From: Jiangella endophytica
GTDB taxonomy: Bacteria; Actinomycetota; Actinomycetes; Jiangellales; Jiangellaceae
Length of the DNA stretch: 64,000 nucleotides
Reading direction: 5' to 3'
NCBI RefSeq assembly: GCF_003427025.1
Contig: NZ_QVAI01000008.1
Location: 1 to 64,000 of the forward strand
Below, one piece after another: positions 13,375 through 64,000 of this stretch. The notes beneath the pieces are model-generated. The model was not told the origin of the DNA and ran no database searches. It saw only the letters and a list, made by a program, of their open reading frames with translations. Numbering within the stretch: position 1 is the stretch's first letter; every line of letters begins with the position of its first letter. The translations under genes were made by a program, and so were the position numbers.

Positions 13375-14295
13375 ATGACCCCAGCACCTACCGCTCTTCC
13401 CGGCGGCACCTGGAACCTCGGCGACCACACCGTCACCCGGTTCGGATACGGTGCCATGCAACTCGCCGGACCCTCGGTCATCGGACCACCCGCCGACCAC
13501 GACGCCGCGATCGCCGTGCTGCGCAACGCCGTCGCACAGGGCATCACGCACATCGACACCAGCGAGGCCTACGGCCCGCGCATCACCAACGAGCTGATCC
13601 GCGAAGCACTGCACCCCTACCCGGCCTCGCTGCTCATCGCCACCAAGGTCGGAGCGACCCGCGACACCGAGGGCGGCTGGCCCACCGCCCGACGACCCGA
13701 CGACCTGCGGCAGCAGGTGCACGAGAACCTCGAGTCCCTCGGCGTCAAGAGCCTCGACCTGGTGAACATGCGCATGGGGGACGCCACCGGGCCATCACCC
13801 GGGTCGATCACCGAAGCGTTCGAGACCCTCGCCGAACTTCAGGAGCAAGGCGTGATCCGCCATCTCGGTGTCAGCAACGTCACCGCCGAACAGGTCGCTG
13901 ACGCACGAGAGGTCGCCCCGGTCGTGTGCGTGCAGAACATGTACAACCTCGCCCATCGCCACGACGACCTGCTGATCGACGACCTCGCCGCAGACGGCAT
14001 CGCCTACGTCCCGTTCTCTCCGCTCGGCGGATTCGCTCCCCTTCAAGCAGCAGCCCTCTCGGCGGTGGCCACCCGACTGAACGCGACGCCGATGGCCGTC
14101 GCACTCGCGTGGCTGCTGCAACGCTCGGCGAACATCCTGCTCATCCCCGGCACGTCCAAAGTCACGCACCTGCGGGAGAACATCACCGGAGCCTCGCTCA
14201 CCCTCTCCGCCCAGGATGTCGCAGAGCTCGACAGAATCAGCGGCGGGATGTCCAGGTCAAGTTCTGCCGTCTTGAGGCGGCGTTCAACCAGCTGA
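13375..14295 (+). CDS. aldo/keto reductase with altered C-terminus
   Basis: The protein is 306 residues. The NADPH-dependent (beta/alpha)8 reductase family is shown by FGYGAMQLAGP, the catalytic Asp-Tyr segment HIDTSEAYGPRITNELIREA, the distal IATKVGA, and IPGTSKVTHLRENI near the cofactor site. GAGAGG lies seven bases before the start. After LDRISGG the last 16 residues (MSRSSSAVLRRRSTS) are unlike the family and are read from DNA that is the antisense of an integrase remnant. The natural last few residues were therefore replaced when the integrase segment came to lie here. The core is intact and probably active. Confidence 0.88.
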   Translation: MTPAPTALPGGTWNLGDHTVTRFGYGAMQLAGPSVIGPPADHDAAIAVLRNAVAQGITHIDTSEAYGPRITNELIREALHPYPASLLIATKVGATRDTEGGWPTARRPDDLRQQVHENLESLGVKSLDLVNMRMGDATGPSPGSITEAFETLAELQEQGVIRHLGVSNVTAEQVADAREVAPVVCVQNMYNLAHRHDDLLIDDLAADGIAYVPFSPLGGFAPLQAAALSAVATRLNATPMAVALAWLLQRSANILLIPGTSKVTHLRENITGASLTLSAQDVAELDRISGGMSRSSSAVLRRRSTS

Positions 14296-14480
14296 TCAGC
14301 GGTCGCGTTCGCCAGCCGCGTCCGGACCCGGTCAGCGTCAGCTTCGGTCCTCGGACCAGGCGGTATGGTCTCGCGGTTGTAGATGCGCCGCTTGGTGATG
14401 AAGTCGATGCCGACGTCGACGGACACACGGGCGGCGCCCGATGGAGCTTCTCGATCTGCCCCTTCGGTCGTCGCCCGGTG
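14245..14480 (-). pseudogene. truncated tyrosine-type integrase, N-terminal part only
   Basis: The minus strand encodes RRPKGQIEKL, then after a frame change VSVDVGIDFITKRRIYNRET, then IPPGPRTEADADRVRTRL. This is the N-terminal arm-binding region of actinobacterial tyrosine recombinases (typical: KGSIEKLPSGALRVSVYAG, DPITKRR, IPPG). The core-binding and catalytic domains are absent: the frame runs into the end of the aldo/keto reductase gene. Its place, 120 bp from the 3' end of a tRNA gene, is where such integrases normally sit. Confidence 0.78.
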
Positions 14481-14600
14481 CGCCCGGTTGCGGCCACGAC
14501 CTCAGGGCACCACGGCACTCGCACCACGCGCAACACCATGGCCCCGCGTCAGATTGCTCTCGGAGCGATGAGCCCGCACAATCGACGCAGGTCAATCGGG

Positions 14601-14672
14601 TGGGCGCAGTAGGGTTCGAACCTACGACCCCTGGTTTGTAAGACCAGTGCTCTACCGCTGAGCTATGCGCCC
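14601..14672 (-). tRNA. tRNA-Val (anticodon UAC)
   Basis: A full cloverleaf can be drawn. The acceptor pairs GGGCGCA with TGCGCCC, the D-arm is GCTC/GAGC, the anticodon stem is CTGGT/ACCAG with loop CTTACAA, and the T-arm is GTAGG-TTCGAAC-CCTAC. Loop bases 34-36 are TAC, which reads valine GUA. CCA is not encoded. Its 3' end faces the accessory block and integrase remnant. Confidence 0.95.
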
Positions 14673-14727
14673 CGTCGACCTGCGAAGGCTCAGGGTATCG
14701 GGAGACCGCGGGACGCCGAAATCGGCG

Positions 14728-15189
14728 TCAGGCGGCGCCTTCGGGTGGCACCTTCCGTTGTTCCTGGGTGTTCGGGCCCTGTGCGGCCAGCGCGTCGGCG
14801 ATGGCCGACTGCGTGGGCCGGGCCGGCGCTCTGCCGAGCACGCGGTCGATGGCGCTGGCGACGTCGGCGGAGAGGTCGCGGCTGTCGGTGCGGCGATGCC
14901 GGCCGGGGCCGGGCATCCGGATGGCGAAACCGCGGTCCATGGTGGTCTCGACGGCGAGGAACTCGGCCGTGGCTGACGCCTCGCAGGAGCGGCACACGGT
15001 GTGGCCGAGCCGGCGCACGAGCGTGGTGGCGCCGCAGACGGTGCAGTGGTCGAGGTCGGTCGACCAGCCCTTGTTCTGCTGGCAGTCGGGGCAGACCAGC
15101 ACCTGCTCGTCGGCCCGGACCCCGCGCACCCACAGGTTCGTCCCCCGGGCAGGGTCAGACTGTCGGGCGCCACAGCGATAGCACGGCAC
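14728..15189 (-). CDS. small zinc-ribbon protein of unknown function
   Basis: The protein is 153 residues. The N-terminal 90 residues contain four CxxC pairs (CYRC at 3-6, CPDC, CTVC, CRSC), enough to bind two zinc ions. The remainder is Ala/Arg/Pro-rich with a helical segment (LSADVASAIDRVLGR). I do not recognise a named family. It lies between tRNA-Val and the peroxiredoxin on the same strand as the latter, but with a 59-nt gap, so co-transcription is possible but not shown. Confidence 0.7.
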   Translation of the reverse strand: MPCYRCGARQSDPARGTNLWVRGVRADEQVLVCPDCQQNKGWSTDLDHCTVCGATTLVRRLGHTVCRSCEASATAEFLAVETTMDRGFAIRMPGPGRHRRTDSRDLSADVASAIDRVLGRAPARPTQSAIADALAAQGPNTQEQRKVPPEGAA

Positions 15190-15248
15190 GGGCGAGCTCC
15201 CTTCCTGCTCTGTACTGGAACCGGCGGACGACGAGGGTGCCCGGACCG

Positions 15249-15710
15249 TCAGGCCGCGCCGAGCGAACTCAGCACGCGCCGGTAGTCGTCGACGTCCCTG
15301 GCATCAGGAAGCGCGTTGACGACGTCCCAGCGGACGGTCCCCCCTGCGTCCACTACGAAGGTACCTCGTACGGCGCAGCCGCGGTCGTGATCGAACACAC
15401 CGTACGCCGTGGCAACCGCCCCATGTGGCCAGAAGTCGGACAACAGCGGGAAATCCAGCCCGGCCGACTCGGCGAAGACCCGCAACGAGAACATCGAGTC
15501 GCACGAGACGGCCAGGACGTGAGCGGCCGCACCGACCGCGGGGACGAGGGAGTCGCGGATCGCGGTCAGCTCGCCCGTGCACACGCCGGTGAACGCGAAC
15601 GGAAAGAACGCCAGGACGACCGGCCGGCCGCGCAGAGAGGAGAGCCGGACTGCCGAACCGTGCTGGTCCGGCAGTTCGAAGTCCGGTGCCGGAGCACCGA
15701 CCAGGCTCAC
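15249..15710 (-). CDS. peroxiredoxin, AhpE/AhpC-TSA type
   Basis: The protein is 153 residues from the GTG at 15708-15710. The peroxidatic cysteine is in the family motif FPFAFTGVCTGEL (Cys44), with a second Cys in AVSCDSMFSLRVFAE (Cys70). It should reduce hydrogen peroxide or organic peroxides in the cytoplasm. The start overlaps the stop of the DUF3052 gene by four bases (GTGA), so the two are translationally coupled. Both lie divergently from aceE, as in Streptomyces. Confidence 0.92.
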   Translation of the reverse strand: MSLVGAPAPDFELPDQHGSAVRLSSLRGRPVVLAFFPFAFTGVCTGELTAIRDSLVPAVGAAAHVLAVSCDSMFSLRVFAESAGLDFPLLSDFWPHGAVATAYGVFDHDRGCAVRGTFVVDAGGTVRWDVVNALPDARDVDDYRRVLSSLGAA

Positions 15711-16141
15711 TTGCGGGCCGACCCCTTGGGGGCGACCAGCTTGGTGCCGGACCAGTCCTCGGCCGCCGACACGGTGGACGTGGTGGACAGGCCGGCGGTC
15801 AGTGCGGCGTCGGCGATGTCGCTGGCCTCGACGGCGCCGTCGCGACCCACCTTCGGTGTCAACAGCCACACGACGCCGCCGGGCGCGAGGTCGGTGGTCG
15901 CGCCGATGAGGGCGTCGGTGAGGTCACCGTCGTCCTCGCGCCACCACTGCAGCACCACGTCGGCGACCTCGCCGGACTCGCCGTCGAGCAGCTCGGTGCC
16001 GGTGACTTCCTCGATGTCGATACGCAGATCGTCATCGCAGTCGTCGTCCCAGCCGAGCTCCAGGACCACCTGGTTGGGACGGAAGCCGAGCTTGGCCGCC
16101 GGCCCGTCGTGCTGGTCCGAGTGGCCCGCGATCTGGCCCAC
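15707..16141 (-). CDS. DUF3052 family protein
   Basis: The protein is 144 residues, starting at a GTG after AGGAGGA; a longer frame adds 16 untypical residues. The sequence is acidic (GWDDDCDDDLRIDIEEV, WWREDDGDLTD) and ends with a lysine tail (LVAPKGSARK). The function is unknown, but members are conserved beside aceE in many actinobacteria. The gene is divergent from aceE and coupled to the peroxiredoxin. Confidence 0.85.
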   Translation of the reverse strand: MGQIAGHSDQHDGPAAKLGFRPNQVVLELGWDDDCDDDLRIDIEEVTGTELLDGESGEVADVVLQWWREDDGDLTDALIGATTDLAPGGVVWLLTPKVGRDGAVEASDIADAALTAGLSTTSTVSAAEDWSGTKLVAPKGSARK

Positions 16142-16414
16142 CGATCGTCCTCCTCGCAGTCGTCGCGGCCCGCCCCCTGCGTACCGCATTGCTGTAGTCC
16201 ACCCAAGGACGCGCGCTAGCGCAAGTGAACCCGCCAGACCAAGCCTGACACGTTCCCCCGAACGCGCCTATGGTGCCCCTGCTCAGCGCGCTTGGAAAGA
16301 CGTCCGCGCATCCGAATGTGACGTACGGCCGCCGAGCGAGCAGGATAGGAACACAGAACCCGAACTCGCCCCGACGCTCACATCGGCGTCCTACGAGACC
16401 ACGAAGGGACAGTC
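16142..16414 (+). promoter_or_regulatory. divergent intergenic region upstream of aceE
   Basis: This 273-bp gap separates the DUF3052 gene from aceE and must hold both promoters. I see no strong palindrome or riboswitch-like structure. The aceE ribosome site is AAGGGA, seven nucleotides before its GTG. Confidence 0.35.
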
Positions 16415-19162
16415 GTGGCTGCCGACCGCTCGCCGATCATCATCAACGGCCTTCCGAGCCAGCTCCCCGACATCGACGCCGACGAGACCAGGGAGTGGCT
16501 GGAGTCGCTCGATGCCGCCATCGACCAGCGCGGACGCCATCGCGCCCGCTACCTGATGCTGGCGTTGCTGCAGCGCGCCCAGGAACGACAGGTCGGCGTC
16601 CCGAGCCTGCGCAACACCGACTACATCAACACCATCCCGCCCGAGGCCGAGCCCTGGTTCCCGGGCGACGAGTACGTCGAACGGCGCATCCGGGCCTACA
16701 TCCGGTGGAACGCGGCGATGATGGTGCAACGCGCCCAGCGGCCGGGCGTGGGCGTCGGCGGGCACATCTCCACCTACGCATCGTCGGCGAGTCTCTACGA
16801 AGTCGGGTTCAACCACTTCTTCCGCGGCAAGGACCACGCCGGCGGCGGCGACCAGATCTACTTCCAGGGGCACGCCTCCCCCGGCATGTACGCCCGTGCC
16901 TTTCTCGAGGGCCGGCTGGCGGAGACCCAGCTCGACGGTTTCCGCCAGGAGCTGTCGCACGCGGGCCCGGGCGGCGGGCTGCCGTCGTACCCGCACCCGC
17001 GGCTGATGCCCGACTTCTGGGAGTTCCCCACGGTGTCCATGGGCCTGGGCCCGCTGAACGCCATCTACCAGGCCCGTTTCAACCGCTACCTGCAGGATCG
17101 CGGCATCAAGGACACCAGCCAGCAGCACGTGTGGGCGTTCCTCGGCGACGGCGAGATGGACGAGCCCGAGACCATCGGCGCCATCGGCGTGGCCGCCCGC
17201 GAAGAGCTCGACAACCTCACGTTCGTCGTCAACTGCAACCTGCAGCGGCTCGACGGCCCGGTACGCGGCAACGGCAAGATCATCCAGGAGATGGAGGCGC
17301 TGTTCCGAGGCGCCGGCTGGAACGTCATCAAGGTCATCTGGGGCCGCGAGTGGGACCCGCTGCTGGCCGCCGACACCGACGGCGCGCTGGTCAACCTCAT
17401 GAACGTCACGCCCGACGGCGACTACCAGACGTACAAGGCCGAGTCCGGCGCGTACGTCCGCGAGCAGTTCTTCGGCCGCGACCCTCGCACCCGCAAGATG
17501 GTCGAGGACATGTCCGACGACGAGATCTGGGGACTCAAGCGCGGCGGGCACGACTACCGCAAGCTCTACGCGGCCTACAAGGCGGCCACCGAGCACACCG
17601 GCCAGCCGACCGTCATCCTGGCCAAGACCATCAAGGGCTGGACGCTGGGCTCGCACTTCGAGGCCCGCAACGCCACCCACCAGATGAAGAAGCTGACCGG
17701 CGACGACCTCAAGCTCTTCCGCGACCGCCTGTTCATGGAGATCCCGGACTCCGCGCTCGAGGACGTGTACCACCCTCCGTACTTCCACCCGGGCAAGGAC
17801 TCCGACGAGCACGCCTACATGATGGAGCGGCGGCAGAAGCTGGGTGGCTTCCTGCCCGACCGCCGCACGAAGGCGCAGCCGCTGGTGCTGCCCGGCGACA
17901 AGGTCTACGAGGTGGCCCGGCGCGGGTCCGGCAAGCAGGCCGTCGCCACCACCATGGCACTGGTACGCCTGGTGAAGGACCTGCTCAAGGATCCCGAGAT
18001 CGGCAAGCGGCTGGTGCCCGTCATCCCCGACGAGGCCCGCACGTTCGGCATGGACTCGCTGTTCCCGACGCTGAAGATCTACTCGCCGCACGGCCAGAAC
18101 TACACGCCCGTCGACCGCGAGCTGTTCCTGTCCTACAAGGAGGCCACGGACGGGCAGATCCTGCACGAGGGCATCAACGAGGCCGGCTCCGTGGCGTCGT
18201 GGACGGCGGCGGCCACGTCGTACTCCACCCACGGCGAGCCGATGATCCCGCTCTACATCTTCTACTCGATGTTCGGCTTCCAGCGCACCGGCGACGGCTT
18301 CTGGGCCGCGGCCGACCAGCTGGCCCGCGGCTTCGTCCTCGGCGCCACCGCCGGGCGCACCACGCTCAACGGCGAGGGCCTGCAGCACGAGGACGGCCAC
18401 TCGGTGCTGCTGGCGTCGACCAACCCGGCGGTCGTGCACTACGACCCCGCGTACGCGTTCGAGATCGGGCACATCATCAAGGACGGCCTGCGCCGCATGT
18501 ACGGCGACGAGTCCGAGAACATCTTCTACTACCTGACGATCTACAACGAGCCGTACGTGCAGCCGGCGGAGCCCGAGAACCTCGACGTCGAGGGCCTGCT
18601 CAAGGGCATGTACCTCTACCACCCGATGCAGACCGCGCCGGGCGACGACGTCCCGCACGCGCAGATCCTCGCGTCGGGCGTCGGCATGAACTGGGCGCTC
18701 GAGGCGCAGCAGCGGCTGGCCGAGGAGTGGCAGGTCGCCGCCGACGTCTGGTCGGTGACGTCCTGGAACGAGCTGCGCCGCGAGGCCCTCGACGCCGACG
18801 AGTGGAACCTCATGAACCCCGGCGAGGAGGCCCGCGTCCCGTACGTCACCGCACGGCTGCGTGAGGCCCGCGGCCCGGTCGTCGGCGTCAGCGACTACCT
18901 GCGTGCCGTGCAGGACCAGATCGCGCCGTACGTGCCCACCGACTACACCTCGCTGGGCACCGACGGCTTCGGCCTGTCCGACACCCGGGCGGCGCTGCGG
19001 CGGCACTTCAAGGTCGACGCCCAGTCCATCGTCATCAGCGTGCTGACGCTGCTGGCGCGGCGCGGTGAGCTCCCGTGGGACACCGTCAAGCAGGCGCACG
19101 ACCGCTACAAGCTCGCCGACGTCAACGCCACCACCGCCGAGGAGGCCGGCGGCGAGTCCTGA
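16415..19162 (+). CDS. aceE: pyruvate dehydrogenase E1 component, homodimeric
   Basis: The protein is 915 residues, the full length of the single-chain alpha2-type E1. It decarboxylates pyruvate with thiamine diphosphate and passes the acetyl group to the E2 lipoyl domain, feeding the citrate cycle and fatty acid synthesis. Visible marks are the N-terminal [20 protein letters not shown], the cofactor-binding region beginning [15 protein letters not shown] and continuing to [20 protein letters not shown], and the C-terminal domain with [19 protein letters not shown] is the start. It is convergent with the rhamnosidase gene, ending 10 bp from it. Confidence 0.98.
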
Positions 19163-55932: not shown

Positions 55933-58900
55933 ATGCGTCCGGTGCGCATCGGGATCCTGGGACCGCTGGAGGTCCGCGCCGACGACGACTCGCTGGTCTA
56001 CGTCGCCGGCGCCCGGCTGCGCGCGCTGCTGATCATCCTGGCGCTCGCGCCGGGCCGGCTGGTCCCGATCGGCCAGCTGATCGACGGCATCTGGGGCGAC
56101 GACCCGCCGGCCGGCGCCGCGAACGCGCTGCAGGCGCTGGTGTCGCGGCTGCGCCGAGCGCTGCCGGGGCTGGCGATCGAGTCGCACCCGGCCGGCTACC
56201 GGCTGGCGCTGGAGCCCGGCGTCGTCGACGCGGCCCGGTTCGAGCGCGAGATCACGGCGGCCCGCACCGCGGCGGACGACGCGGCGACGGAGCACGGCCT
56301 GCGGGCGGCGCTGGCACTGTGGCGCGGCCCGGCGCTGCTGGACGTCGCGGGATCGGAGCACTTCGAGGCCGCACGAACGCGGCTGGACGAGCTGCGGCTG
56401 ACGGCGACGGAGGACCGCGCCGACGCGGCGCTGCGACTGGGCCGAGGGGCCGAACTGACCACCGAGCTGACGACGCTGGTCGCCGAGTACCCGCTGCGTG
56501 AACGGCTGGTGGGCCAGCTGCTGCGGGCGCTGGTCGCGGCCGGCCGCCCGGCGGCCGCGCTGGCGGCGTACGAGCGGACCCGTGAGGCGCTGGCCGACGA
56601 ACTGGGCACCGACCCGTCCGCCGAGCTGGCCGCCCTGCACACCGCCATCCTGCGCGGCGAGCTCGAGCCGGCCCCGGCGGCGGCACCGGCGCCAGCGTCC
56701 GTCACGGCTCCGGCGGAGCGGCCCCCGCCCCCGCGGACCAACCTGCGCGCCGGGCTGACCAGCTTCGTCGGCCGCGACACCGACGTCACCCAGGTGCGCG
56801 GCCTGGTCGGCGAGTACCGGCTGACGACGCTGACCGGGCCGGGCGGGTCGGGCAAGACCCGGCTGGCGAACGAGGCGTCACGCGGTCTGGTCGACGCGAT
56901 ACCCGACGGCGTGTGGCTGGTCGAGCTGGCGGCGGTCGCGTCCGGCGCGGACCTGCCCGCCGCGGTGCTCGGCGCCCTCGACCTGCGCGACCAGATGTTC
57001 CTCGCCTCAGCCGACGACGCGACCGGCCGGCTGGTCACGGTGCTGCGGACGCGCGCGGCGCTGCTCGTCCTGGACAACTGCGAGCACGTCATCGACGCCG
57101 CCGCCGCGCTGGCCGAACGGCTGCTCGGCGAGTGCCCCGGACTGCGGATCCTCGCCACCAGCCGCGAGCAGCTGGGCATCACCGGCGAGGCGGTCTGGCC
57201 GGTGGAGCCGCTGGCGCTGCCGCCCGAGTCGGACGGCGACACCGGCGACCTGCTGCGCTTCGACGCCGTCCGGCTGCTGGCCGACCGCGCCCGCGCCGCG
57301 CGCCCGGGCTTCACCGTCTCGGCCGCCGACGCCCCCGCCGTCGCCCGCATCTGCCGCGCCCTCGACGGCATGCCGCTGGCCATCGAGCTCGCCGCGGCCC
57401 GGCTGCGCACGATGACGGCCGAGCAGCTGGCCGCCCGCCTCGACGACCGGTTCCGCCTGCTCACCGGCGGCAGCCGCACCGCACTCCCCCGCCACCAGAC
57501 GCTGCGTGCCGTCGTCGACTGGAGCTGGGGGCTGCTCCCCGAGCCGGAACGCGTCGTGCTGCGCCGGCTCGCGGTCTTCGCCCACGGCGCCACGGCCGAG
57601 GCGGCGGCGCGGGTGTGCGGCGACGGCGCCGACGTGCTGGACCAGCTGGTCTCGCTGAGCGACAAGTCGTTGCTGATGGTCGACGACGCCGGCGACGTGC
57701 CGCGGTACCGCATGCTGGAGACGATCAAGGCGTACGGCCTGGAACGGCTCGACGACGCCGGCGAGCGCGACACCGTCCGCCGGGCACACCTCGGCTACGT
57801 CACCGGCCTGGTCGAGCGGGCCGAGCCGCACCTGCGCCAGGCCGAGCAACTGCAGTGGCTGCGCCGGCTCGGCGCGATCCACGACGACCTCAACGTCGCC
57901 CTGCGCGGCGCCGTCGCCGCCGGTGACGCCCAGGCGGCGGTCGCACTGGCCAGCAAGGCCATGTGGTACTGGTGGCTGTCCGGTCACCGGGCCGAGGGCG
58001 CCGAGCTGACCACCGAGGCGCTCGCCGTGCCGGGCGAAGTCGACCGCACCGTCCGGGCCACCGCCTACGCCGGCCTCGCCATCATCGCCACGGCCGGCCT
58101 CGGCGACGAGCAGGAGGTCAAGGACTGGGTCGAGGAGGCCGAACGGCTCTCCGGCGGCCACCGGAGCAACCCGCTGCTGCGGATGGTCGGCGGGCTGCGC
58201 GACTTCATCAGCTACGGCGACGCCATGTTCACCGACTCGATGGCGACGCTGCTCGATGACGACGACGCCTGGATCCGCGCCCTGGGCCGGCTCAACCACG
58301 TCCGGCTGCTGCCGTTCGCCGAACGGCGCGTGCCGTCGGAGCTGGCGCTGGCCGAGTTCCGCGGCACCGGCGAGCGCTGGGGCATCTCGTTCGCGCTGAC
58401 CACACTGGCCGACCTGCTGGCCCGGCAGGGCGACCTGGCGACGGCGCTGCGCCACTACGAGGAAGCGATCGTCGCCGCAGCCGAGGTCGGCTCCGCCGAG
58501 GACGTCGTCTTCATGCGCGGCAAGGAGGCGCAGCTGCGCTGGCTGCTCGGCGACGCCGAGGGCAGCGCCGCCGCGCTGGACCGGGCCGACCGGGAGGCGG
58601 CCGGTCTGGCCTGGCCGGACTCCGTCGCCGGTCTCGCGCTGTATGCGAGCGACCTGGCCCGCTGGGCCGGCGACCTTGACGACGCGCACGCGTCGCTGGA
58701 CCGCGCGGAAGCGCTGATGGCGACGATCTCCGTCCACCCGCTGTTCTGGGCGATGGTCCACGACTCGCGGGGCCACCTCGCCGCCCTCAGCGGCGATCTG
58801 ACGGCGGCGGCCGCGGAACGGGCCGCGGCGGCGAAGCTGGCGCTGGACATCGGCGACGAGGAGGTGCTCGGCCGGGTGCTCGTCGGCCTCGCCGACCAGG

Positions 58901-59175
58901 CGATCCGGCGCGGCCGGGCCGACGACGCCGCCTGGTTGCTGGCCGTCGTGACGGTGCTGGCCGGCGGCCTGGACCGCTCGCGGGCCGAACCCGCGCTGGT
59001 CGAGGCGGCCGTACGCGCCGCGCTCGGCGACGAGACGGCCGCCGAGCGTTCGGCCGTGGCCGAACGCGAAGTCGCCGGCATCGACGCCGAGGCGGCCATC
59101 TCGCGAGTGCGCGAGATGGCCGCGTCGATCCTGGGCCGGCCGGTCAGCGGACCGGAGGCCGACGGAACAGCTTGA
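55933..59175 (+). CDS. SARP/AfsR-type regulator with NB-ARC ATPase
   Basis: The protein is 1080 residues. Residues about 1-95 are an OmpR-type winged helix (RIGILGPLEVRADDDSLVYV), and 96-245 a bacterial transcriptional activation (BTAD) domain. An NB-ARC ATPase follows with the P-loop TGPGGSGKTRLANE (about 303-310) and Walker B LLVLDNCEHV (about 377). The C-terminal 450 residues are helical TPR-like repeats. Such proteins often switch on secondary metabolite genes, but no biosynthetic cluster is visible nearby. The 3' end overlaps the convergent ABC permease gene by 32 bp. A GTG at 55942 is an alternative start. Confidence 0.93.
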   Translation: MRPVRIGILGPLEVRADDDSLVYVAGARLRALLIILALAPGRLVPIGQLIDGIWGDDPPAGAANALQALVSRLRRALPGLAIESHPAGYRLALEPGVVDAARFEREITAARTAADDAATEHGLRAALALWRGPALLDVAGSEHFEAARTRLDELRLTATEDRADAALRLGRGAELTTELTTLVAEYPLRERLVGQLLRALVAAGRPAAALAAYERTREALADELGTDPSAELAALHTAILRGELEPAPAAAPAPASVTAPAERPPPPRTNLRAGLTSFVGRDTDVTQVRGLVGEYRLTTLTGPGGSGKTRLANEASRGLVDAIPDGVWLVELAAVASGADLPAAVLGALDLRDQMFLASADDATGRLVTVLRTRAALLVLDNCEHVIDAAAALAERLLGECPGLRILATSREQLGITGEAVWPVEPLALPPESDGDTGDLLRFDAVRLLADRARAARPGFTVSAADAPAVARICRALDGMPLAIELAAARLRTMTAEQLAARLDDRFRLLTGGSRTALPRHQTLRAVVDWSWGLLPEPERVVLRRLAVFAHGATAEAAARVCGDGADVLDQLVSLSDKSLLMVDDAGDVPRYRMLETIKAYGLERLDDAGERDTVRRAHLGYVTGLVERAEPHLRQAEQLQWLRRLGAIHDDLNVALRGAVAAGDAQAAVALASKAMWYWWLSGHRAEGAELTTEALAVPGEVDRTVRATAYAGLAIIATAGLGDEQEVKDWVEEAERLSGGHRSNPLLRMVGGLRDFISYGDAMFTDSMATLLDDDDAWIRALGRLNHVRLLPFAERRVPSELALAEFRGTGERWGISFALTTLADLLARQGDLATALRHYEEAIVAAAEVGSAEDVVFMRGKEAQLRWLLGDAEGSAAALDRADREAAGLAWPDSVAGLALYASDLARWAGDLDDAHASLDRAEALMATISVHPLFWAMVHDSRGHLAALSGDLTAAAAERAAAAKLALDIGDEEVLGRVLVGLADQAIRRGRADDAAWLLAVVTVLAGGLDRSRAEPALVEAAVRAALGDETAAERSAVAEREVAGIDAEAAISRVREMAASILGRPVSGPEADGTA

Positions 59176-59935
59176 GCGCCCAGACGTAGCCGGCGAGGCC
59201 GATCACGGCGGTCCAGGCCAGCGCGATGACGGCGTTGTCGCCGATCGCGGTGCCCAGCAGCAGGCCGCGCACGGTCTCGATCACCGGGGTGAACGGCTGG
59301 TACTCGGCGAACCAGCGCAGTCCGGCCGGCATCGAGTCGGTCGGGACGAAACCGCTGCCCAGGAACGGCAGCAGCACGAGCAGCGTGGGCAGGTTGCTGG
59401 CGGTCTCGACGCTCTTCGCCTTCAGCCCCATCGCCACGGCCAGCCAGGTCAGCGCGATGGAGAACAGGCAGATCAGGCCGATCGCGGCGATCCACTCGGC
59501 CACGTTGCCGTTCGTCCGGAACCCGATCAGGAAGGCCACCGCGATGACGATGGCCAGGCCCACGACCGTCTGCAGGAAGCTGCCGATGACGTGCCCGGTG
59601 AGCACCGCGCCACGCGAGATCGCCATGGTGCGGAACCGGGCGATGATGCCCTCGTGCATGTCCATGGCGACCGAGATCGCCGTCCCCTGGACCGAGGCCG
59701 ACACCGTCATCAGGATGATGCCGGGCACCAGGTACGCGATGTAGTCGGCCCGGTCGCCGGCCGGTCCGCCGAGCCCGGCGCCGAGCGTCTCGCCGAACAC
59801 GTAGGCGAACATCAGCAGGAAGATCACCGGGATGCCGATCAGCTGCACGGTCATGGCCGGGTAGCGGGCCCACCGGCGCATGTTGCGGCGCAGCATGGTG
59901 CGCGAGTCGCGGGCGGCATAGGCGAGGGTGCTCAT
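59144..59935 (-). CDS. ABC-2 type exporter permease (DrrB-like)
   Basis: The protein is 263 residues with six membrane segments, starting after a short cytoplasmic lead (YAARDSRTMLRRNMRRWARY). The conserved ABC-2 stretch is YLVPGIILMTVSASVQGTAI. It overlaps the ATPase gene's stop by four bases (ATGA), and the pair should export a lipophilic compound, as DrrAB does for daunorubicin. The substrate is unknown. Confidence 0.92.
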   Translation of the reverse strand: MSTLAYAARDSRTMLRRNMRRWARYPAMTVQLIGIPVIFLLMFAYVFGETLGAGLGGPAGDRADYIAYLVPGIILMTVSASVQGTAISVAMDMHEGIIARFRTMAISRGAVLTGHVIGSFLQTVVGLAIVIAVAFLIGFRTNGNVAEWIAAIGLICLFSIALTWLAVAMGLKAKSVETASNLPTLLVLLPFLGSGFVPTDSMPAGLRWFAEYQPFTPVIETVRGLLLGTAIGDNAVIALAWTAVIGLAGYVWALKLFRRPPVR

Positions 59936-60900
59936 CGGACGGACTCCTTCTCGGCGTCGGCGGTCTCGGCGGGGCGACCCGTGAGCGCGAGGAACACGTC
60001 ATCGAGGTCGGGGGTGTGGACGGTCAGCGACGCGACCTCGATGGAGGCGACGTCGAGGTGGTCGAGGACGGCGCGCAGCGAGTGGACGTCGCCGTCGCTG
60101 GGGATCTGCAGGGCGAGCGCGGCGTCGTCGCGCGTGGAGCCGGCGAACGTGCGCGCCGCCTGGTCGAGCTCGGCCGGGTCGGTGAACTGCAGCCGCAGGT
60201 GCCCGCCCGGGATGAGCCGCTTGAGCTCGTCGGACGTGCCCTCGGCGACGATGCGGCCGTGGTCGAGCAGCGCGATCCGGTCGGCCAGCTCGTCGGCCTC
60301 CTCGAGGTACTGCGTGGTGAGGAAGATGGTGACGCCGCCGGCGATCAGCTCGCGGATGGCCTCCCACATCGTGCGCCGGGTGCGCGGGTCCAGCCCGGTC
60401 GTCGGCTCGTCCAGGAAGATCACCCGCGGATCGCCGACCAGCGTCATCGCCAGGTCGAGCTTGCGGCGCATTCCCCCGGAGTACGTCGACGGGGCCTTCG
60501 TCGCGGCGTCCACCAGGTCGAACCGCTCCAGGAGGTCGGCGGTCCGGCGCCGGCCCTCGCGCCGGTCCAGATGATGCAGGTCGGCCATCAGGAGCAGGTT
60601 CTCCTCGCCGGTGAGGAGGTTGTCGACGGCGGAGAACTGGCCGGTGACGCCGATCGAGCCGCGGACGCCGTCGGCGTCGGTGGCGAGGTCGTGGCCGGCG
60701 ACGCTGATGCTGCCGCCGTCGGCCCGGATCAGCGTCGAGAGGATCTGGACAGCGGTGGTCTTGCCGGCCCCGTTCGGGCCGAGCAGGGAGAAGATCGTGG
60801 CCTCGGGGACGGTGATGTCGATGCCGTCCAGGACGAGCTGCTCGCCGTACGACTTGCGCAGGCCGGTCGCGGCGATGGCCGTCGGTCGGTCGACTGTCAT
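59932..60900 (-). CDS. ABC exporter ATPase (DrrA-like)
   Basis: The protein is 322 residues starting at an ATG after GAGGAG. The Walker A is LLGPNGAGKTTAVQIL, the signature YSGGMRRKLDLAMTLVGDPR, and the Walker B with its D-loop VIFLDEPTTGLDPRTRR. The C-terminal extension ends in DLDDVFLALTGRP, typical of DrrA-type ATPases. It works with the coupled permease gene. Confidence 0.95.
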   Translation of the reverse strand: MTVDRPTAIAATGLRKSYGEQLVLDGIDITVPEATIFSLLGPNGAGKTTAVQILSTLIRADGGSISVAGHDLATDADGVRGSIGVTGQFSAVDNLLTGEENLLLMADLHHLDRREGRRRTADLLERFDLVDAATKAPSTYSGGMRRKLDLAMTLVGDPRVIFLDEPTTGLDPRTRRTMWEAIRELIAGGVTIFLTTQYLEEADELADRIALLDHGRIVAEGTSDELKRLIPGGHLRLQFTDPAELDQAARTFAGSTRDDAALALQIPSDGDVHSLRAVLDHLDVASIEVASLTVHTPDLDDVFLALTGRPAETADAEKESVR

Positions 60901-61037
60901 GGCTCCTCGTTTCGTGGTGTCGCGATGCTGAGGCGACCACACTCCGCCCGGCCCCTGATGCGGCCGTGAGACCGCGCTGACACGGCGCTGACACGGCCGC
61001 TGACAGCTGCGTGTACCGAGGTCAGTAGGCTGTCCCG
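60901..61037. promoter_or_regulatory. divergent promoter region, exporter / membrane-protein operon
   Basis: The 137-bp gap must hold promoters for both directions. It contains the direct repeats GCTGACACGGC (60978-60988) and GCTGACACGGC (60989-60999), directly adjacent, followed by CGCTGACAGCTG. These adjacent 11-bp copies are a candidate regulator-binding site. Confidence 0.55.
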
Positions 61038-62315
61038 GTGCCCATCGCCCCGGCCCTGGCCCTGACCGCGCTGCTGCTGGGGGCGTCGCCGGCCACCGCC
61101 GAGCCGGCCGCTGACACCGTCGACGCGCTGATCGAGCAACTACGCGACGACCCGATCCTGGTGGATCCGTCGATGGGCATGGGCGATTCCGCCCTCGCGC
61201 ACGACGTGCTCACCGAGGCGGCCGCGGACGTCGGCCTGCCGGTCTACGTCGTACTGGCCGACAACCCCTCCGACCTCGCGGGCACCGACAGGGTGGCGGA
61301 ACAGGCGGCCGCGCTGTTCCGCGATCAGCTCGGCGACGGGCTTTACCACGTCGAGTTCCGCGAAGGCATCTCCTACACCCAGTCGTGGGGCGGCGGCGAG
61401 CTGGACGACGCCTACCTGGCGCCGGTCACCCGCGCCCTGGAACGGGCGGAGTCGAACGGCCCTGGCGAGTACCCGCGGGCGTCCGCGCTGTTCGAGGCGG
61501 TGCTGACGGTGCGCTGGGCGGTCGCGCCGAGCGAGGAGATACCCGAGGCCGTCGTGGACGAGTACGCGGAGCAGCCGTGGGCGTTCGTGGCCGAGTCCGA
61601 CTACGAGCGTGCCGACGCGACCGCCGGCCGCTGGGTCGCGCTGCTCGCGACGATCGTCGGCGTGCTCGTCGCCGGCACGATCGTCACGCTGGTCGTCGCC
61701 CGGGCGAAGCCGGCCGGACGGGGCGCCGCGGGACGGCGGCCGGCGTCCACGCGCGCGACGTCGTCGGACCCCGCCCGTAGGGTGGGCCCCACCCGGGCCG
61801 GGAGGGGTGCGGCTACCACCTCGGCCATTCCCGGCAACATCGGCGCGACGGCCGAGAAGGCGCTCGACGAGGCGCGGCGGCGGCTGGCTCGGCTGCCGGC
61901 CGACAAACTGACCTCACCGGCAGGGTCGGCAGCGGCCGACGCCGTCGAAGCGGGCGACCGGGTCCTGACGACCCGCGACTCCCTGGACGCCGTCGGCGCG
62001 ACGGTGCTGGCCGCGATCGCCGTCCGCGAGATCGAACGGGCCGGGTCGCCGGACCGGCGGCCGTACCGCCCGTGCTTCGTCAACCCCTTGCACGGCGAGG
62101 CCCGCGACACCGTCCGCATCGACGGCTCGTCCATCGACGCGCCGGTGTGCCGCGCGTGCGCCCGCACGCAGGGCCGGTTCCTCGCCGTCAAGCGGCGGCT
62201 GCGCGGCTCGGTGCCCTACGCCGAGACGTCCACCGTCTGGGCCCGGACCGGATTCGGCGCGCTGGTCGGCGACCTCGCCGCGCAGGTCCTCGACGATCGG
62301 AGCGCGCGCCGATGA
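61038..62315 (+). CDS. membrane protein with TPM-like extracellular domain and cytoplasmic Cys motif, copy 1
   Basis: The protein is 425 residues. A signal peptide (residues 1-22) leads into an extracellular domain of about 160 residues beginning ALIEQLRDDPILVDPSMGMG. A membrane helix lies near 200-222 (WVALLATIVGVLVAGTIVTL), then a basic, disordered stretch. The C-terminal region has PCFVNPLHGE and, about 25 residues later, CRACARTQG, a possible zinc site. The same layout recurs in the third gene. I know no function. The stop overlaps the next start (ATGA). Confidence 0.75.
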   Translation: MPIAPALALTALLLGASPATAEPAADTVDALIEQLRDDPILVDPSMGMGDSALAHDVLTEAAADVGLPVYVVLADNPSDLAGTDRVAEQAAALFRDQLGDGLYHVEFREGISYTQSWGGGELDDAYLAPVTRALERAESNGPGEYPRASALFEAVLTVRWAVAPSEEIPEAVVDEYAEQPWAFVAESDYERADATAGRWVALLATIVGVLVAGTIVTLVVARAKPAGRGAAGRRPASTRATSSDPARRVGPTRAGRGAATTSAIPGNIGATAEKALDEARRRLARLPADKLTSPAGSAAADAVEAGDRVLTTRDSLDAVGATVLAAIAVREIERAGSPDRRPYRPCFVNPLHGEARDTVRIDGSSIDAPVCRACARTQGRFLAVKRRLRGSVPYAETSTVWARTGFGALVGDLAAQVLDDRSARR

Positions 62316-62959
62316 GCCGGCGGATCGTGGGACTGCTGATCACGCTGGTCCTCGCGGCGGGCGGCGGCGCCCTCGCATGGTGGCTGGCCACGTCCGGCAT
62401 CACGCCGGACCTGCCGGTGACGGAGCGGGCCCGGGCCGCCGCGGCCGGACTCGGCGACGACGGGCACGTCTACGTCGACCCGAGCGCCACCGGAACGTTC
62501 ACCGACGCCGACCTCGCCCGGCTCGACGCCGCGGCCGCCGCGTCGGACCCGCAGGCCTTCCTCGTCGTGTGGCCGGCCAGCCGCGAGGCCGGCTACGGCT
62601 CGCCGTCCGACGTACTGCACCAGATCGGCGACCTGACCGGCCGGCCCGGGCTGTACGTCCAGGTCGTCCCCGGCGCGGACCTGTTCGACACCGACGTCGG
62701 CATCGCGGGCGAGTACCTGTCCATCTACAGTGCCGTCGGCGACGAGGCGGAGACCGAGACACCCGCGTTGCTGCGGCTGATCGACGAGAACGACGGGCGG
62801 GAGTACGAGGTGGGCGAGGACACCAGCAGCAACTACTGGGGCGGCACCGGCGGGATGATCGCCGCCGGTCTGACCATCGGCGGCCTCGGCGGCGTCGGCG
62901 CCGGTCTGCTCGGGCTGGCCGGGTGGGCACTGGTGCGGCGGCGGAGGGCGGCGGCATGA
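62312..62959 (+). CDS. membrane protein with the same extracellular domain, copy 2
   Basis: The protein is 215 residues. An N-terminal hydrophobic segment (IVGLLITLVLAAGGGALAWW) acts as a signal or anchor. The extracellular domain has GHVYVDPSATGTFTDADLAR, parallel to the matching parts of its neighbours. A second membrane helix close to the C-terminus is Gly-rich (GLTIGGLGGVGAGLLGLAGW). It lacks the C-terminal Cys region. It overlaps both neighbours by four bases (ATGA), so all three should be made in equal amounts. Confidence 0.75.
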   Translation: MSRRIVGLLITLVLAAGGGALAWWLATSGITPDLPVTERARAAAAGLGDDGHVYVDPSATGTFTDADLARLDAAAAASDPQAFLVVWPASREAGYGSPSDVLHQIGDLTGRPGLYVQVVPGADLFDTDVGIAGEYLSIYSAVGDEAETETPALLRLIDENDGREYEVGEDTSSNYWGGTGGMIAAGLTIGGLGGVGAGLLGLAGWALVRRRRAAA

Positions 62960-64000
62960 GCGACGACGTGGTCTACCAGCCCGACCCGGCGGCCATCGCG
63001 GCCGACCTCGCCGACGACGGCGTGCACGTCGACTCCTCCCTCGCCGACGAGTTCACCGCGGAGCAGCTCTCCGAATTGGCCACGCTGGTCGGTGACGCCG
63101 AACAGCCGGTGTTCGTGCTGGCCGTACCGCTCGACTACACCTCCGAGGTGTCCGCCAACCAGCTGGTGGCGCAGGTGTACAGGGAGTCCCCCGCGGACGG
63201 CGTCTACTTCGTCTCGCACCGGTCCAGCGACGACTGGCGGGTGCAGTCGACCAGCTACAACATGGCGACGAGCAACGAGGACGCGCTGGCCACGTACGTC
63301 GCCGGCGACCGGTTCCCGAGCAACCTCGCGCTCCAGGTGGCAGAGACCGTGCGGGTCTTCAGCAGCGGCACCGTCGAGCAGCAGTACGCGGAGCTGCACC
63401 CCGACCAGGAGTCCGTCACCAGCACCGGCGACGGCGGCTCGGGGCAGGTGCTGGGGATGGATCCGCCGGTCGCGATCGGGGCCGGCGTCGCGCTGGCCGC
63501 CGTCGTCGCCGTCGTCGTCCTGCTGCGACGCCGCCCGCGCGGCGACGTCGCACTGAAGCGGCGGGCGCTGCGCCGCATCTCGTCGGCGCAGACCCGCGAG
63601 TGGCGGCGCCGGGCCGAGACCGAGACCGCCGCGCTGGGCGACCGGATCCGGGCGCTGGAGATCGAGCACGGCGACGACGGCGCGACGTGGTCGGCGGCAC
63701 TCGACCACTACCAGGCGGCGACGGCGATCCTGGACCGCTCCGACGCGGCGGCCGACTCGATCGGCGTTCTCGTGCTGGCCCGCCGCGGCGACGACGCGCT
63801 GAGCCACGCCGCCGGCGGCGGGTCGTGGACACCCACGGCGGCCTGCTTCTTCAACCCGCTGCACGGGCCGGCGACGACGAAGGCGACGTGGAAGACGGCG
63901 GCGGGCAAGCGCGACGTGCCCTGTTGCGGGGCGTGCCGGCGCGACCTCGGCAAGCGCCGCGAGCCGGAGATCCTCGACCTGCCGACCGGCGACACCGTCG
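62956..64000 (+). CDS. membrane protein with TPM-like domain and Cys motif, copy 3, cut by window end
   Basis: The visible 348 residues lack a signal peptide and start with the shared domain (IAADLADDGVHVDSSLADEF). A membrane helix (VAIGAGVALAAVVAVVVLLR) lies near residue 172. A cytoplasmic coiled region follows (RREWRRRAETETAALGDRI-like), then ACFFNPLHGPATT and PCCGACRRDLGKR. The NPLHG plus CxxC pattern is the same as in copy 1. How it is inserted in the membrane without a signal is unclear. The end is outside the window. Confidence 0.75.
   Translation, partial: MSDDVVYQPDPAAIAADLADDGVHVDSSLADEFTAEQLSELATLVGDAEQPVFVLAVPLDYTSEVSANQLVAQVYRESPADGVYFVSHRSSDDWRVQSTSYNMATSNEDALATYVAGDRFPSNLALQVAETVRVFSSGTVEQQYAELHPDQESVTSTGDGGSGQVLGMDPPVAIGAGVALAAVVAVVVLLRRRPRGDVALKRRALRRISSAQTREWRRRAETETAALGDRIRALEIEHGDDGATWSAALDHYQAATAILDRSDAAADSIGVLVLARRGDDALSHAAGGGSWTPTAACFFNPLHGPATTKATWKTAAGKRDVPCCGACRRDLGKRREPEILDLPTGDTV

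Follow-up and report, generated by a model that had tools for sequence, protein, structure and literature searches.

In a Jiangella soil bacterium, the products of three adjacent genes are membrane proteins that probably belong together in a single, undescribed complex spanning the envelope, instead of being three unconnected proteins. The genes close the window (the whole stretch of DNA analysed, 64,000 nucleotides), which lies on a contig of a 7.85 Mb assembly. Their products represent a membrane family present in many actinobacteria, Streptomyces and Actinomadura included, that is absent from Pfam and NCBIfam and whose members are unannotated or called hypothetical where checked. The placement of its conserved regions as a TPM domain and a zinc finger, its constant three-subunit make-up and the link of single-copy relatives to PspA open direct tests of the disputed function of TPM domains, either as enzymes or as assembly factors for membrane complexes.

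Gene organization and membrane topology

All three genes are read from the forward strand. ORF1 (type A; 61038..62315) starts with GTG and encodes 425 residues, comprising a signal peptide, a TPM-like domain, a transmembrane (TM) helix, a linker and a helical and zinc-finger domain. ORF2 (type B; 62312..62959; 215 residues) encodes a TPM-like domain between two TM helices, followed by a short basic tail, and is without a zinc domain. ORF3 (type C; 62956..64095, of which 62956..64000 is in the window; 379 residues) has a TPM-like domain, a TM helix and a helical and zinc-finger domain; its final 95 bases lie beyond the window, the gene ending at contig position 64095. As originally predicted, each junction is a four-base overlap, with ATGA at 62312..62315 and at 62956..62959 (both forward strand). 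In 16 of 16 orthologous triads checked (12 from Jiangella and 4 from its sister genus) both downstream genes start at -3 from the stop codon before them, and overlap coupling is also common in triads outside Jiangellaceae. A look past the window, which the original prediction had proposed, found a convergent gene for a GntR regulator after ORF3, so the operon ends with ORF3.

Complete triads are present in Jiangella and in its sister genus Phytoactinopolyspora. Protein identity across the two genera is 53-83% (82% between the window ORF3 and its Jiangella muralis ortholog), dN/dS of the triad genes is 0.3-0.75, and the cysteines and histidine of the zinc site are invariant in every ortholog containing that region; together these values argue that the features of the triad are not due to chance. 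The ORF3 of Phytoactinopolyspora endophytica is broken over two frames (L092/L026), through a frameshift or an assembly error. Within the ORF1 linker lies an in-frame copy of the dispersed G+C-rich palindromic repeat CCGCCCGTAGGGTGGGCCCCACCCGGGCCGGG (61771..61802, forward strand), which has many sites in the genome; the linker copy is found in 6 of the 16 orthologs and is absent from the others. The genes upstream of the triad, divergent from it, encode a DrrAB-type ABC exporter together with a BTAD-AAA regulator (window 55933-60942) and keep this position across Jiangella. A functional link to exporter or regulator was considered and rejected, as they neighbour the triad only in Jiangella.

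Hydropathy and flanking charges place one TM helix in ORF1 (residues 202-220; 61641..61697, forward strand), behind a signal-peptide-like N terminus, and one in ORF3 (residues 172-190; 63469..63525, forward strand), where seven basic residues follow the helix and none precede it. In ORF2 the shared domain is flanked by a TM helix on each side. The shared domain is hence predicted to lie outside the membrane in all three proteins and the zinc region of ORF1 and ORF3 to be cytoplasmic, the latter because of the positive-inside charges, which bear out the earlier proposal that the Cys/His motif and the shared domain are on opposite sides of the membrane. Jiangella ORF3 is without a signal peptide though its domain is predicted outside; an N-terminal hydrophobic segment is present in 14/14 Streptomyces equivalents of ORF3 examined. 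Matches of ORF3 to the NCBIfam model GVDTG_CTERM fall on the mid-protein TM helix and an arginine cluster, and were thus discarded as a C-terminal sorting signal.

Predicted domains on the two sides of the membrane

The extracellular domain is very likely a divergent TPM domain and the cytoplasmic region a zinc finger, an assignment made jointly from predicted models and profiles. The TPM-like domain spans approximately 61116..61577 in ORF1 and 62426..62821 in ORF2, by a domain HMM combined with profile and fold evidence from relatives for the former and with profile comparison for the latter, and 62971..63399 in ORF3, where the limits were taken over from the model of the J. muralis protein, which is 82% identical (all forward strand). 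The AlphaFold model of that ortholog has a mean pLDDT of 86.6, rising to about 95 in the TPM domain. Its top structural matches are solved TPM proteins, AtTLP18.3 among them: 3ptj (Z 12.6 over 132 residues), 2kw7 (12.3) and 5anp (12.3), and it also matches Psb32 (8c7i, Z 12.0) and 7tbr (Z 10.9). In these searches the best TPM rows scored 10.9-13.2 against Z of about 6 to 8 for unrelated structures, and the second TPM domain of the fused Streptomyces protein, again a predicted model, reached Z 13.2 to 5anp. With Foldseek by itself, E values for the whole-chain model were all above 0.2; the TPM match came from a second aligner.

Profile comparison with actinobacterial TPM sequences gave a probability of 85 for the pooled domain (0.3 for a zinc-domain control) and of 94 for the A-type proteins of Actinomadura and Streptomyces. 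The subunit types of the window taken singly scored weakly (27-46), so membership of the TPM family rests on the predicted fold and the pooled profile. Matches to the TPM Pfam model PF04536 were found for 0 of 76 proteins of one family set at E 0.01 and for 1 of 44 of another at E 0.009. The original prediction had described an (I/V)xVDPS motif followed by a strand pattern in all three proteins. The shared domain and the later strands (VVLADNP, VVWPAS and VLAVPL in ORF1, ORF2 and ORF3, respectively) hold up, but the motif is not strict: ILVDPS in ORF1 and VYVDPS in ORF2 become VHVDSS in ORF3.

Across the family, the Asp of the VDP motif is kept in 124 of 239 domains and that of the DG motif in 168 of 239. 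An enzymatic TPM domain is doubtful because the VDP Asp is not strictly kept. We therefore regard it as most improbable that the triad is a cell-surface phosphatase or ATPase, an activity reported for some TPM proteins: the predicted TPM fold and the published activities of AtTLP18.3 and BA41/BA42, as cited in PMC11237479 and PMC9478572, would suit such an enzyme, but the VDP Asp and the variable DG motif do not, and later authors doubt the phosphatase role of TPM proteins (PMC12419801).

On the cytoplasmic side, the predicted zinc site is C346-x5-H352...C371-x2-C374 in ORF1 (62073..62159, forward strand) and C297-x5-H303...C324-x2-C327 in ORF3 (63844..63936, forward strand). The spacing between C-x5-H and CxxC is 25 residues in ORF1 and 27 in ORF3, in keeping with the interval of about 25 residues first noted between CFxNPLHG and CxxC in copies 1 and 3. 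Among 165 zinc domains the first two cysteines are invariant and a single domain lacks the histidine; as fourth ligand, 150/150 triad-type domains have Cys and 12/15 single-copy relatives have Asp, which suggests that Asp can stand in for Cys. Conservation of the ligands across the family agrees with the metal site that had been put forward as probable, and the lack of conserved cysteines that had been named as evidence against it was not seen. In the J. muralis model the elements after a long helical hairpin come in treble-clef order, namely C296-x5-H302, a beta-hairpin (strands 307-313 and 316-322) and C323-x2-C326 at the start of a helix (324-331), although the C-x5-H knuckle is unusual for a treble clef. 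The zinc-finger fold is absent from the structural matches of the whole-chain J. muralis model, a match list filled by the TPM domain. The CFxNPLHG...CxxC region is a probable zinc finger.

A membrane protein with conserved domains on both sides has a receptor-like topology, and the triad could be a transmembrane sensor in which a ligand or stress at the outer TPM domains alters the inner zinc domains and, through them, a cytoplasmic regulator or enzyme. The strong conservation of the zinc finger would fit such signalling, and the varied genomic settings of the triad would suit a stand-alone sensor. We consider a sensor unlikely, as kinase, DNA-binding and other output domains are absent from the proteins, no conserved regulator adjoins the triad, and TPM domains are not established as ligand sensors.

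Subunit composition, relatives and genomic neighbours

A scan of named genomes with an ORF3-type profile yielded 80 loci, in which domains were counted in all frames after loci fetched twice had been removed. A count of exactly three TPM domains and two zinc domains was found in 69 distinct loci of Jiangellaceae, Nocardioidaceae, Thermomonosporaceae and Streptomyces, loci within one genus not being independent. The C-type motif served to find the loci, so that C is guaranteed by selection and A and B are not; A-type proteins were likewise sampled through these loci. Three gene orders and one fusion give this composition. Jiangellaceae and Nocardioidaceae have the order A-B-C, some Nocardioides C-A-B, and Actinomadura and its relatives B-A-C, while BA-C, in which B and A are fused, is the form of Streptomyces and of one other lineage. 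Subunits of Actinomadura and Streptomyces were equated with A and B by domain layout; in trees the C-type groups clearly and the other types less so. In three further loci the triad is followed by a single-copy relative, two loci (L130 and L149) have one extra TPM-zinc gene, incomplete sets sit at contig ends, and pairs of other composition occur at L075, L078, L207 and on contig C56 of the Jiangella genome itself (L071). One Nocardioides strain has two complete triads in tandem (L109).

Because the 3:2 set is constant across three gene orders and a fusion, the triad products are likely to be subunits of one envelope-spanning complex. The fixed-ratio transmembrane set that had been predicted is borne out at the level of domain counts, from which a physical complex is inferred. 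Tandem duplicates that share an operon and work independently offer a different account, one in keeping with the existence of single-copy and two-gene relatives, in which one copy can evidently function alone. We judge this quite improbable, since independent proteins would not call for a 3:2 composition held through every order and the B-A fusion, nor for conserved translational overlaps.

The triad forms a single expanded branch within an actinobacterial family that spans the phylum; its single-copy relatives, which have a Gly-rich tail, are found throughout the Actinomycetota. The Jiangella genome itself contains two other family loci: the L071 pair consists of two adjacent TPM-zinc genes (C56, about 13942-16570), and a single-copy member lies near an accA3-type gene (C1:525 kb). 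Curated models cover none of the three window proteins. Pfam and NCBIfam gave nothing at threshold for them, and no recurrent curated family explains the relatives; the PADLOC anti-phage defence models matched nothing relevant, a PDB sequence search with ORF3 gave no match, and a plasmid collection returned only partial matches to unannotated or hypothetical proteins. The Rv1476 family (PF20381) was tried for ORF3 and rejected (Pfam E 0.56, 10.4 bits against 26 needed; profile probability only 45-65). The family search that had been suggested thus left the triad outside Pfam, NCBIfam and PADLOC. The earlier statement that no system of this form has been described stands insofar as no curated family covers the triad, but has to be narrowed: the shared domain is a divergent TPM domain, as judged by fold and profile, and the triad is a branch of a wider family.

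Within the class, 30 of 33 genomes from 8 families have a family member downstream of an accA3-type biotin carboxylase gene, in the same orientation and no more than 6 kb away. The triad itself directly follows this gene in Nocardioidaceae, Phytoactinopolyspora and Actinoallomurus, and at L095-L114, L122, L149 and L161 the order of accA3-type gene and triad, often with short spacing, suggests co-transcription. In Phytoactinopolyspora a single-copy relative and a triad are still found together at the accA3 locus, where the triad may have formed next to the single-copy gene. Such an arrangement would be expected of a membrane anchor or regulator of acyl-CoA carboxylase, whose zinc domains would dock an AccA3-type biotin carboxylase to the membrane, much as mycobacterial AccA3 binds the membrane tether Wag31 (PMC12097788). 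We nevertheless think this a poor candidate. Triad neighbourhoods differ by lineage, those of Jiangella, Actinomadura and Streptomyces being away from the accA3-type gene; outside the class no family member adjoins a biotin carboxylase gene, and the common gene order may be merely inherited.

The neighbours of single-copy relatives outside the class are of another kind. These genes adjoin pspA in 7/7 testable loci from three families (L209, L210, L212, L215, L216, L217 and L220), co-directionally in one family and divergently in two, and Pfam confirmed pspA (PF04012) and pspAA (PF22743) in the loci that were checked. In four other families outside the class no pspA is adjacent to the single-copy relative, and none was seen alongside the window triad. 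The link to PspA is one of the single-copy relatives and is extended to the triad by homology, because the window triad adjoins a DrrAB-type exporter and neighbourhoods differ between lineages.

Proposed role and comparison with known systems

The explanation we prefer, with about even confidence in it as a whole, is a heteromeric envelope complex acting as a non-enzymatic scaffold or assembly-maintenance factor under envelope stress. Each subunit would expose a TPM domain, divergent and probably non-catalytic, on the outer side of the membrane, where these domains would bind partner domains. In A and C a helical hairpin with a treble-clef-like zinc finger at its end would be added on the cytoplasmic side; B would contribute the third TPM domain, anchored through its two TM helices. 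The zinc domains would bind a cytoplasmic partner, which for the ancestral single-copy form would be a PspA-type protein, and translational coupling would maintain the 3:2 stoichiometry. We infer both the interaction with PspA and the duplication history, in which the triad would descend from a single-copy protein of TPM-TM-zinc layout that occurs across Actinomycetota. That the triad itself serves assembly or the envelope-stress response is plausible, if a little short of even. More tentative is the suggestion that it constitutes a transmembrane machine of fixed 3:2 composition which goes back to a PspA-linked TPM protein specific to Actinomycetota and founds a new branch of envelope-stress or membrane-complex-assembly systems.

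Several known proteins resemble the triad in part. The Rv1476 family is likewise an actinobacterial membrane family, with a similar N-terminal pattern and weak profile similarity, but has no zinc domain and exceeds the cut-off only in one sampled family, where the triad family was not found. Many TPM proteins end in a Gly-rich tail. The single-copy relatives share this tail with the TPM family (PF04536; AtTLP18.3, Psb32, BA41/BA42, YgcG and YdjH types), and the triad shares an extracytoplasmic TPM domain with a TM helix and, in predicted models, the fold itself (Z 11-13). The triad differs from PF04536 in falling below the Pfam threshold, in its inconstant VDP Asp, in the added cytoplasmic helical zinc-finger domain and in its fixed set of three subunits.

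TPM domains have been proposed to help assemble membrane complexes (PMC11237479, PMC12419801), and YdjH of Bacillus subtilis (ydjFGHL), a TPM protein named as a PspA partner, has been discussed together with a chaperone-like role for TPM domains (PMC11237479). Like YdjH, the single-copy relatives of three Actinomycetota families are membrane TPM proteins encoded beside pspA; YdjH differs in its low-complexity or coiled-coil tail, with no such zinc finger as described, and the window triad differs in not lying beside pspA. MSMEG_4692 (DUF5130; 6adq chain J) is a small, single-domain protein without a zinc domain or a triad, but it has a TPM-like fold, matching the J. muralis ORF3 model with Z 8.9 over 105 residues, and is a resolved subunit of a membrane complex, the mycobacterial CIII2CIV2 respiratory supercomplex.
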